Below are positions 13,828-48,120 of a stretch of DNA of 64,000 nt, one piece after another. The notes below the pieces were generated by a model. That model was not told the origin of the DNA and ran no database searches. It saw only the letters and a list, made by a program, of their open reading frames with translations. A program made the position numbers and the translations under genes. Origin of the DNA: Solibacillus sp. FSL R5-0449 (GTDB lineage: Bacteria > Bacillota > Bacilli > Bacillales_A > Planococcaceae); NCBI RefSeq assembly GCF_037975215.1, contig NZ_CP150239.1, positions 1,650,001-1,714,000 on the forward strand. The letters are read 5' to 3'. Each line of letters begins with the position of its first letter. Within the stretch, counting starts at the first letter, position 1.

Positions 13828-13843
13828 AATGACAATTTAATAG

Positions 13844-14001
13844 TCTTATCAAGAGAAGCGGAGGGACTTGGCCTTATGATGCTTCAGCAACCTCTAGTGT
13901 TACTAGAAAGGTGCTACTTCCAGCAAGGTGTTGACCTTGGCAGATAAGAACGGGTAAAAGCCCCTCTCAATTCTGTTTTGCTGGAGTGAGAGGGGCTTTT
14001 T
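13844..14001 (+). promoter_or_regulatory. SAM-I riboswitch (S-box) with terminator
   Basis: The S-box aptamer is complete. CTTATC (13844-13849) pairs with GATAAG (13943-13948), and between them lie AAGAGAAGCGGAGGGA, GCCTTATGATGCTTCAGCAACC, and a P3/P4 region ending in GACCTTGGCAGATAAG. An expression platform follows: AGCCCCTCTCA (13959-13969) pairs with TGAGAGGGGCT (13987-13997) and runs into TTTTT. In the family, S-adenosylmethionine binding stabilises the terminator and switches off the downstream methionine gene, here metA about 100 bp further on. Confidence 0.95.
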
Positions 14002-44307: not shown

Positions 44308-45108
44308 TTATTTATTGCTCGGCTCCGTTGCATATTCATCGATCTCAACAGCCCATGAAACAATCGTTGTACTGTCCCGTACTCCCTTTGCCTCAATCTC
44401 CTTTAGTAGCTGACCTACAGCATCGTGTGAAGACTGGGAATGAGTAAATACTTGCAGAATGTCCCTCGGGTTATCAAATGAAGTATGGGGACATTCCGTT
44501 AGTCCGTCCGTCGTCATAAAAAGCTGATTTAATCCTTTTCGCAATTCTCTGCGCCCCGTACTGTAACAAGGCACATCCAATTCGAACGTATTAACATTCC
44601 CGATCCATTCATAGAAATTTCTTTGGTTTAGCTGATATTGCTGCATTTCAGCCAGTTCAGGGTGAAACATGTGAAGAATACAGTCTCCAACCGAAAACCA
44701 CCAAATATATTTGTCTTTCCTTAATACAATCAGACAAGCCGTTTCCCCCTGCACTTCCCGACAACGGGCTAAAAAGAGCGGATCTTGAAAAATATGGAGA
44801 ATGTAATGATCCAATTCCTGAAAAGCAACGGAAAGCGGTTTGTTAAAAATTGAAGTGAGGTTATGCTCTTCGTTTAAAATAGTTTCCACAACAAGTTCGG
44901 CACTTTCCGCACTGTTATGGGCATCCAAAATCATGACAAATTCCCAGTTTTGTTCTTCATTCACCCAAACGAGACAACCATCTTCGTTTTTATATTGCCC
45001 TGCTGAAGTATTGCCACCAAACCTTCCAATGACTATGTTCTTGAATTGCAAAGTATCCGGTAAATCTACAAAATGTGTTTCGCTCCCTATCCAGCTGAAT
45101 TTGAACAT
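44308..45108 (-). CDS. PP2C-like protein phosphatase
   Basis: A 266-residue protein with PP2C/PPM character: GRFGGNTSAGQYKNEDGCLVW (first metal motif), FVMILDAHNSAESAEL (the DGH motif appears as DAH), WWFSVGDCILHMF and LFMTTDGLTECP, then DSTTIVSW near the end. The Gly-to-Ala change in the DGH motif is unusual but keeps the aspartate. It would dephosphorylate Ser/Thr residues; the target is unknown. ATG 45108 has AAGGAGG. Confidence 0.8.
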   Translation of the reverse strand: MFKFSWIGSETHFVDLPDTLQFKNIVIGRFGGNTSAGQYKNEDGCLVWVNEEQNWEFVMILDAHNSAESAELVVETILNEEHNLTSIFNKPLSVAFQELDHYILHIFQDPLFLARCREVQGETACLIVLRKDKYIWWFSVGDCILHMFHPELAEMQQYQLNQRNFYEWIGNVNTFELDVPCYSTGRRELRKGLNQLFMTTDGLTECPHTSFDNPRDILQVFTHSQSSHDAVGQLLKEIEAKGVRDSTTIVSWAVEIDEYATEPSNK

Positions 45109-45872: not shown

Positions 45873-46247
45873 TTAAACTTCTACACGGTAACGCCAATTT
45901 GCGTGTTTAACATCCTCATAATTGATGTATGCAACACTTGCTTCAATGACATCGTTTAAGTTCAGGTTATGGTCTTTTGCAAATTCCTTCAGGTTATCCA
46001 GTAATTCCTTATCGCATGTCGTCCGAAATTCGATGCGGTCTTTAGGCCGGTTTTTTTTATCGTAAACGATTGTACCCGATTCAATTAAATTACTGTATCC
46101 ATTTTCCAGTAAATAACCGATATGTGTATCATATTTTTTGGCAAGCTGTTTTAAACTGTTAATAATTGCCGCGCTCATACGCGTTTTGTACCGGATTCTT
46201 GATTCGTCCGTTGTTTGAATCAGTTTCCCGTTATGTATCTTCCACAT
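45873..46247 (-). CDS. Protein with two ribbon-helix-helix-like halves
   Basis: A 124-residue protein in which two similar segments appear: RIRYKTRMSAAIINSLKQLAKKYDTHIGYLLENGYSNLI and RIEFRTTCDKELLDNLKEFAKDHNLNLNDVIEASVAYI. Each has a short strand rich in Arg/Thr followed by two helices, the pattern of ribbon-helix-helix DNA-binding domains. A tandem RHH would bind DNA as a pseudo-dimer. ATG 46247 has AGGAG at 8 bases. No target is visible. Database entries for relatives sometimes carry an unsupported rRNA methyltransferase label. Confidence 0.6.
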   Translation of the reverse strand: MWKIHNGKLIQTTDESRIRYKTRMSAAIINSLKQLAKKYDTHIGYLLENGYSNLIESGTIVYDKKNRPKDRIEFRTTCDKELLDNLKEFAKDHNLNLNDVIEASVAYINYEDVKHANWRYRVEV

Positions 46248-46299
46248 TGTCATTCTCCTATCAGCAATTCATTACGTATATTATAGCCATTATTGCCAA

Positions 46300-46652
46300 A
46301 AATAAAACACTCCTTATGGCATAAGGAGTGAAAGGCGTAAAGCTGCGGTCGGTATTGCGTATTCAGTTGTAATGTTTCGTACGTTAGTTTAACATCTTAT
46401 AAAACGTTTGAGCTGAAATTTTCAATAGTATATCTCAATTCGTGTATGCATTTCGCTCGCCTAACTTTAGTTGGCATCTTTCGAAAATCTTCGTTAAAGC
46501 ATTTTGTTCATTAATTGCCTAAAATAAACTGTGAATGTTGCTTGATAAACGCATACAACGAAGCTAATAGAAATCATCATATAAACTATCTAAACTAGTG
46601 GTTAACTTACATCTACTCTTCAGTGACCGCAACTTTACTTACAAGTAATATA
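46300..46652 (-). ncRNA. Candidate structured RNA of about 330 nt
   Basis: The minus strand from about 46640 to 46300 has no good ORF but strong RNA features. A 14-bp closing helix joins 46625-46638 with 46337-46350 (13 Watson-Crick pairs and one G-U). A second helix inside joins 46591-46597 with 46385-46391. A hairpin GCCAACT-AA-AGTTAGGC lies in the interior. Six bases after the closing helix comes a perfect terminator (CACTCCTTATG / CATAAGGAGTG) with TTTTATTTTT. A TATATT box precedes the 5' end. It lacks tmRNA, RNase P, SRP and 6S hallmarks. Confidence 0.55.
46305..46333 (-). terminator. Terminator of the candidate RNA
   Basis: ACACTCCTTATG/CATAAGGAGTG-type perfect inverted repeat with T-rich tail on the minus strand only. 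Confidence 0.8.
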
Positions 46653-46746
46653 CCACCTTAAACTACCCTTAAACCTATTTTGAGAACTTTTTTTTCGGAA
46701 TTTTTATGATTCGAGTATATAATAGTAGGAACGGAGGTGTCTTAGC

Positions 46747-48120
46747 ATGCTAAAAATTAAAAAAATCGAGTTTATGAAAGTTCTGTATGATGACGCATTA
46801 GCGCAGAACATCTTTTCAATCGCGAATATTACGTTTTCAAATAGAAGTCCGATACAAGGAGCCCTCCTCTACTGGCAGCAAAATGAATCAAAGGAACCTT
46901 ATACAAAAGAAGGCGACTACAAGTTTTTCTATGACTTGGCAAAAGCGCAATATTTTGCAGCGGTAAAGTTCCCTAAAGACTGTGACTTAACACAGGATGA
47001 ACGCCAGGAACTCGCCTATTTATTATTGGAAGAGCGCGGCGCAATCGGAACATACAGTTTTGTTTCGACGAAGCCAAAAGCCACTTTCCAATTAAATAAG
47101 GCCTTTCAGGAAATTTCGTTCCCTGCCCATTTTTCAGTAGATGATTTTAACGAGCTTTCCATTGTGAAACAGCTGGAATCGAATGACGAAACCGTTTACG
47201 AGCAGCTACCATATGACCGCGTATTTTTAGAAGCTTATAGAAACTGGTGCCATCAGGCTGTTCAGTTGCATCCATCTCGCTTAACGGCTTATTTTCAATA
47301 CTTGCCGTTTGCGTATGTGAGCTATGCCAATACGCTTTTATCGGAACAGTTTTTAATCGATTATTTGCCTGACGTGGATCTGGAAGCACTCCAATATAAC
47401 AAGCCGGTACTTGCCCGGTTGTCGATGTCATTTAAACGTTATTTAGTCACAACGTTAATGGCAAATAAAATGCGTCTGAATCCGGACTTTGTCGATCAGC
47501 TGGATGATTTCATTGAAAGCAATGTCTTTTATAACTCATTTGAGCTTATCTATTTACCGGAAGCCGATGAAATTCCTGATATGGATCTGCAGCTTTTCGA
47601 ATATGACCGTGGTTCGTATAAATGGGCCGGCAGTGAGCATTTAGTGAAAGGAATTCCGTCACTGGTCAGTCAGAAGTATAACCGCTATGGGGACCGTCGA
47701 TTAACAAATGCCGAAATGGATAAAAAGTTTAAAGCGTACAGTGATGAACAAAAGCAGTTATTCACAGCCATTGCGGAGCTGCATTGGTTGAATCGATACA
47801 AAAATGAGCTGGATTGGTCTTATATTTGTCAATACAATGTGCATTTGACGGAACAATTTTTAACAGCACATATCCATTATGTCGATTTCAATGCGCTTGG
47901 CCAAAATACGGATATTGCTGTCAATGCGGAATTTTTATCAACCTATTTACACCGGTTTAACCATCAAAAAGCGGTTCCGTTAATTATTTCCCATTTAACA
48001 GAGCAGTTTTATTTAACACATAAAGATGAAATTAAAGTCGACCTCGATTTGCTCTATAAATATATGGACAATATCGATGAGGAAGAGTTTTTACGAATTG
48101 AAAGTTATTTGCTTGATTAA
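46747..48120 (+). CDS. Unrecognised repeat protein (457 aa)
   Basis: A soluble 457-residue protein. From about residue 190 it carries diverged helical repeats with the pattern L-x-EQFL-x(4)-P/H-x-VD-x(3)-L: LLSEQFLIDYLPDVDLEALQYN, LTEQFLTAHIHYVDFNALGQN, LTEQFYLTHKDEIKVDLDLLYKYM. This recalls short helical-repeat proteins of uncharacterised families. The first half is unassigned. ATG 46747 follows CGGAGGTG, and a terminator follows. No neighbour hints at a role. Confidence 0.7.
   Translation: MLKIKKIEFMKVLYDDALAQNIFSIANITFSNRSPIQGALLYWQQNESKEPYTKEGDYKFFYDLAKAQYFAAVKFPKDCDLTQDERQELAYLLLEERGAIGTYSFVSTKPKATFQLNKAFQEISFPAHFSVDDFNELSIVKQLESNDETVYEQLPYDRVFLEAYRNWCHQAVQLHPSRLTAYFQYLPFAYVSYANTLLSEQFLIDYLPDVDLEALQYNKPVLARLSMSFKRYLVTTLMANKMRLNPDFVDQLDDFIESNVFYNSFELIYLPEADEIPDMDLQLFEYDRGSYKWAGSEHLVKGIPSLVSQKYNRYGDRRLTNAEMDKKFKAYSDEQKQLFTAIAELHWLNRYKNELDWSYICQYNVHLTEQFLTAHIHYVDFNALGQNTDIAVNAEFLSTYLHRFNHQKAVPLIISHLTEQFYLTHKDEIKVDLDLLYKYMDNIDEEEFLRIESYLLD

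Follow-up and report, generated by a model that had tools for sequence, protein, structure and literature searches.

The window (the whole 64,000-nt stretch of Solibacillus DNA that was analysed) contains, between a gene for a 126-aa protein on the minus strand (45873-46253) and a gene for a 457-aa protein on the plus strand (46747-48120), the features of an RNA of ~345 nt read from the minus strand (46298..46643, the ends being inferred from promoter and terminator). A closing helix, P1, is formed by 14 bp including one G-U, with GTAAAGTTGCGGTC as its 5' arm (46625-46638, minus strand) and GACCGCAGCTTTAC as its 3' arm (46337-46350), the two arms lying 274 nt apart. A second helix, P2, would join TAGTTTA (5' arm, 46591-46597, minus strand) to TAAACTA (3' arm, 46385-46391). 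Beginning 6 nt past P1, an intrinsic terminator occupies 46298..46330 of the same strand and consists of a hairpin at 46308-46330, CACTCCTTAT-GCC-ATAAGGAGTG, followed by the T-tract TTTTATTTTT. Both helices and the terminator with its minus-strand T-tail had been proposed in an earlier note on this DNA, and we found the position and pairing of P1 to be exact, P2 to be present where it had been placed and the terminator coordinates to be correct. A gene for a PP2C-type phosphatase with weak SpoIIE similarity lies near the RNA (44308-45108, minus strand).

When compared with dinucleotide shuffles, the P1 duplex of the window copy was equalled in 0 of 1000 cases, and in each of 15 copies by 0-4 of 1000. 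The folding energy of the whole stretch was mildly low on the minus strand (z = -2.09) and on the plus strand (z = -2.02); these values do not distinguish the strands, and the minus strand follows from the T-tract of the terminator and the promoter described below. No internal ORF of 40 aa or more was found on either strand of 46300-46652, into which the end of one ORF reaches (to 46324). ATG-initiated ORFs of at least 15 aa were present on the RNA strand in 14 of 15 copies, some of them common to close relatives, and none at all was present in G033, so that no ORF is common to all 15 copies.

No Rfam model scored above threshold on the window copy; six divergent copies, chosen from the 15, likewise had no such match inside the RNA, and ARAGORN detected neither tRNA nor tmRNA in the window. 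This outcome answers the Rfam check proposed in the earlier note with no family at curated score, including tmRNA, RNase P, SRP and 6S RNA, of which the note had seen no hallmarks. A diverged form of one of these housekeeping RNAs, to which the size and the closing helix are of similar order, has in our estimation scarcely any probability: even with the E limit raised to 10, the only match of the window copy was a Dictyostelium snoRNA, far under the gathering score and regarded as a chance match, the six divergent loci had no Rfam match in the RNA, and the Solibacillus genome G009 lacks the RNA, which is thus dispensable. A miRNA-model match obtained at lax Rfam thresholds in one relative was discarded as lying outside the RNA. 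At gathering scores, Rfam recognised just one element in the window, a SAM riboswitch at 13843-13950 on the plus strand. Among the published titles listed, in a search mostly outside subscription journals, none was found describing this RNA.

A DNA search of 61 genomes produced matches in 16, of which 15 were Solibacillus. Fifteen of the 16 Solibacillus genomes of the collection carry a homologue at this locus, in every case between the 126-aa gene and the 457-aa gene. Thirteen of these copies are full length and two are shortened, G001 having lost part (much) of the interior and G015 nearly all of it, with P1 and the terminator kept in both; in the sixteenth genome, G009, the syntenic gap and the 126-aa gene are present without the RNA. 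A core model additionally recovered the RNA outside Solibacillus, in G033 and G089 of the Lysinibacillus odysseyi group (the second genus), at the same place and divergent to the 457-aa gene. At least one other member of the second genus (G074) carries the 457-aa gene and no core, and upstream of the 457-aa gene at 14 loci of other genera the core motif was seen in G089 only. Inspected by eye, two loci look like decayed forms of the RNA: one in G029 (L102), with a relic 3' end and the core gone, and one in G074 (L112), with terminator and degenerate ends and, again, the core gone.

Model R1, built from 13 copies, was searched against 261 family genomes with E up to 0.1 and matched 73 of them. 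Fourteen Solibacillus genomes and two others were retained, and the other 57 (best E 0.001-0.1), including a match in G009 that lies elsewhere in its genome, were dropped in bulk as noise. Model R2 matched 16 of the 261 genomes, the same 16 as retained from R1, 15 of which are in the model and match by construction while G001 is outside it. Applied to 398 genomes of the class, R2 matched the window's own copy and none of the other 397, searches over 40 genomes being run with stricter filters that may miss weak relatives. The core pattern occurred in five stretches of the genome contigs, one of them (L127) a chance match in coding sequence, and in none of the viral contigs. A 27-nt match in G032 (E = 7e-4), distant from the 457-aa gene of that genome and excluding the core, was also dropped. 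The reading as a non-coding RNA proposed in the earlier note is supported, with the word class to be taken narrowly, as the RNA was found in two genera only among the genomes searched.

Each of the 13 full-length Solibacillus copies forms all 14 pairs of P1; four of these pairs show two-sided changes, three show one-sided changes and seven are invariant. When mapped by parsimony onto a tree built from the adjacent 457-aa protein, the two-sided changes required at least six independent events. For the whole named structure, none of 500 shuffles, which ignore the kinship of the copies, reached the observed percentage paired, the number of cells with two-sided changes or the covariation score, and one of 500 equalled the number of pairs with two-sided changes; slid registers all scored lower on these four favourable measures. 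A fifth measure, further pair types, went in the opposite direction (14 vs a shuffled mean of 17.3). In the second genus P1 is rebuilt from other letters in G033, as 19 bp with one bulge, and is weaker in G089, with mismatches. The hairpin of the terminator is kept in G014, G033 and G089 with its letters changed. P2 displayed no two-sided change and only 87.5% of its cells were paired across the 13 Solibacillus copies, and its pairing is for this reason plausible but unproven. Of the two helices that the earlier note had put forward for a covariation check, the closing one therefore stands up strongly and the second does not.

Inverted ends around a variable interior, sometimes lost as in G015 and G001, might be expected of a small MITE-like mobile element with terminal inverted repeats, or of its remnant. 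We consider this origin highly improbable, given that the sequence occupies one place per genome, namely this locus (with the exception of a self-match of the terminator palindrome on the other strand), that within Solibacillus its two ends show the covariation of an RNA helix, and that a promoter and a terminator flank the RNA.

Most letters invariant across both genera fall in two segments, A (CTTCGTTGTATGCGTTT, 46547..46563, minus strand) and B (AATGCTTTAACGAAGATTTTCGAA, 46480..46503, minus strand), B being almost invariant across the two genera. A can pair either with B or with another later segment complementary to it, C (AAATGCATACACGAA, 46439..46453, minus strand); the letters of C differ between the genera, with complementarity to A kept. 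Both A:B and A:C hardly vary within Solibacillus, which makes covariation uninformative there. The A:C duplex was the stronger of the two in 15 of 15 copies, and shuffles of the C region (300 per copy) did as well in 0-12 cases in 14 copies and in 26 cases in G002. Equilibrium folding of truncated RNAs, as distinct from kinetic simulation, gave A:B a probability of at least 0.77 in 13 of 15 copies when the RNA ended 10 nt past B, and of at least 0.54 in 13 of 15 when it ended just before C. At full length, A:C reached at least 0.89 in 11 of 15 copies; G006, G002 and G089 mostly retained A:B, and G033 had neither pairing. An exchange in which A:B forms first and gives way to A:C in the complete RNA is accordingly what folding models predict for 11 of the 15 copies.

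One segment with two competing partners is familiar from attenuators and riboswitches, which the RNA resembles in that A is complementary to the later B and C and the earlier pair is the weaker; it differs from them in that the terminator stands outside the alternative pairing and the RNA is not leader-like. The gene that such a leader would control encodes the 126-aa protein and has its start codon 54 nt beyond the terminator hairpin. An extended -10 box (TGGCTATAAT, 46280..46289, minus strand), judged by eye against the sigma-A consensus, suggests that this gene may have a promoter of its own. The 126-aa gene was present in 65 of 151 family genomes, and follows the RNA in 15 of 15 Solibacillus copies. 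A 361-aa ORF takes its place in G033, in whose genome the 126-aa gene had no match; the comparison covers the 15 Solibacillus copies and G033, the contig of G089 stopping too early. Neither the 126-aa nor the 457-aa protein had a Pfam or NCBIfam match above cut-off. By eye, the 126-aa protein is made of two similar halves, like tandem ribbon-helix-helix units, and in other genera its gene often stands beside a resolvase-like or homing-endonuclease-like gene.

The shared strand, the short distance and the switch-like A:B and A:C alternatives would fit a riboswitch or attenuator that acts in cis as the leader of the 126-aa gene. This reading appears very unlikely, however, as the terminator overlaps none of P1, A, B and C and a promoter-like box stands directly before the 126-aa gene itself. 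It was rejected on three further observations: the different gene downstream in G033, the lack of the core motif in the upstream 650 bases of all 14 homologues of the 126-aa gene read outside the genus, and the retention of the gene in G009 while the RNA is gone.

Upstream of the RNA, a sigma-B-type promoter was recognised at 46650..46674 on the minus strand, with GTTTAA as -35, a 13-nt spacer and TGGTAT as -10. This GTTTAA...GG motif, rather than the TATATT box singled out in the earlier note, is the best-conserved promoter element: it occurs 10-11 nt ahead of P1 in 15 of 15 Solibacillus copies as GTTTAA-N13/14-TGGTAT or variants such as GGGTAT and GGGTAA. PMC9847131 gives the sigma-B consensus as GTTTAA-N15 (+/-2)-GGGTAT and describes one class of sigma-B promoters that retains GTTT and NGG. 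Scored against GTTTAA/GGGTAT, 13 of the 15 Solibacillus copies matched at 11 of 12 positions and two at 10 of 12. Among 7000 letter shuffles, 14 reached at least 11 matches and 177 at least 10, figures that overstate independence because the motif had been noticed before scoring and because of the kinship among the copies. The promoter of the RNA in the second genus looks sigma-A-like (TATAGT) instead, with sigma-B scores of 8 and 9 of 12 in G033 and G089, despite the presence of sigB there. All four sigB loci read, two per genus, carry GTTTAA-N13-GGGAAT before the gene that stands ahead of sigB and, from its position, is presumably rsbV. Across the window genome, 10 sites fitted the promoter pattern vs 4 for a reversed control; one of the 10 is the RNA's own, four are inside ORFs, and two precede genes that by eye are SDR-like and BCCT-like.

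Of 20 genomes tested, 18 had a sigB gene scoring above its curated cut-off. It was lacking from G009, the Solibacillus without the RNA, and from G029, an outgroup with a 3' relic recognised by eye; resting on two sigB-less genomes, the co-occurrence of sigB and RNA is suggestive and not statistically strong. G009 contains a fragment with two stop codons that resembles the final part of sigB (G009:C1:3984462-3984629). The RNA is dispensable, since the interior has been lost in G001 and G015, both of which carry sigB, and the core is absent from G074.

Targets were sought with the complement of segment B only. A 17-mer search of the window genome allowing up to three mismatches returned 40 matches vs 52 for the control, and a 16-mer search of 12 genomes allowing up to two mismatches returned 95, of which 12 were the RNA itself, leaving 83 non-self matches vs 90 for the reversed control. 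Eight sites taken from both searches were read, six antisense to an ORF and two in sense well inside an ORF. Eleven more, recurring in seemingly orthologous places (orthology and family names being assigned by eye), comprised four in sense ~0.6 kb inside a DEAD-box-helicase-like ORF (G000, G003, G008 and G011), two in an ArsR-like regulator ORF, also in sense, and five antisense to long ORFs. None of the 19 near-complementary sites read was at a start codon, and no mRNA target of B stood out in the 12 genomes. The site in the DEAD-box-helicase-like ORF, a 16-base near-complement of B with two mismatches (L190-L193) that recurs in four of the 12 genomes, probably reflects coding conservation, although it may be a target; the ORF lies ~10.7 kb from sigB in these four genomes.

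Comparison with known RNAs offers two parallels. According to PMC12596718 and PMC3565269, Rli47/SbrE of Listeria is a sigma-B-dependent non-coding RNA spanning bases 1-515 in the alignment; the Solibacillus RNA is likewise non-coding, from a genus of Bacillales, tied to sigma-B and large for a small RNA. Rli47 has a CU-rich loop and binds the Shine-Dalgarno region of ilvA (PMC12596718), an example of a sigma-B-linked non-coding RNA several hundred bases long that binds such a region. No such target was found for the Solibacillus RNA, however, and the resemblance is one of kind. OLE RNA is a ~600-nt RNA of a membrane ribonucleoprotein, involved in stress adaptation. It shares with the present RNA a large structured non-coding form in Gram-positive bacteria, highly conserved stretches of letters and a tie to stress; the Solibacillus RNA differs in its ~345 nt, its restriction to two genera, the absence of an Rfam match and the lack of a constant adjacent protein gene.

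A large structured RNA serving, together with a protein partner, as a scaffold or ribozyme, as has been proposed for OLE RNA, and in which B and P1 would be parts of the fold and B no antisense seed, could account for strings of invariant letters longer than pairing needs, for the end-to-end closing helix and for the failure of any RNA target to be enriched. We nevertheless judge it rather unlikely. No linked protein gene was found, the 126-aa gene not following the RNA in G033 and the 457-aa gene being present in 52 of the 261 family genomes vs 16 of 261 for the RNA core, and intact copies are known from two genera only.

The RNA is conserved, has a paired and covarying P1, a promoter motif and a terminator, and co-occurs with sigB. 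Our best explanation, which we hold to be probable on balance, is a structured, non-coding small RNA of ~345 nt that stands alone and is driven by sigma-B in general stress, and in which an exchange from A:B to A:C frees B. Sigma-B RNA polymerase would transcribe the minus strand in general stress, P1 would close the RNA end to end and its own terminator would end it. During synthesis, segment A would pair first with B; once C has been made, A would pair with C and B would be released. The freed B, nearly invariant, would then probably be the working surface binding another RNA or a protein, and we infer that it is the contact site for such a partner. More tentatively, and with distinctly less confidence, these RNAs might be a new family of stress RNAs that fold in two steps, start out inactive with B held by A and arm only when nearly complete, the core having stayed fixed while one genus came to use a sigma-A promoter and the other a sigma-B promoter.

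The Solibacillus lineage, for which little RNA biology was found in the literature searched, gains a defined and testable RNA. With its promoter, ends and core motif, and with natural loss and deletion variants at hand, it constitutes a testable system, and its apparent joint loss with sigB, if true in more genomes, would provide a natural test of the purpose of a sigma-B-linked RNA.
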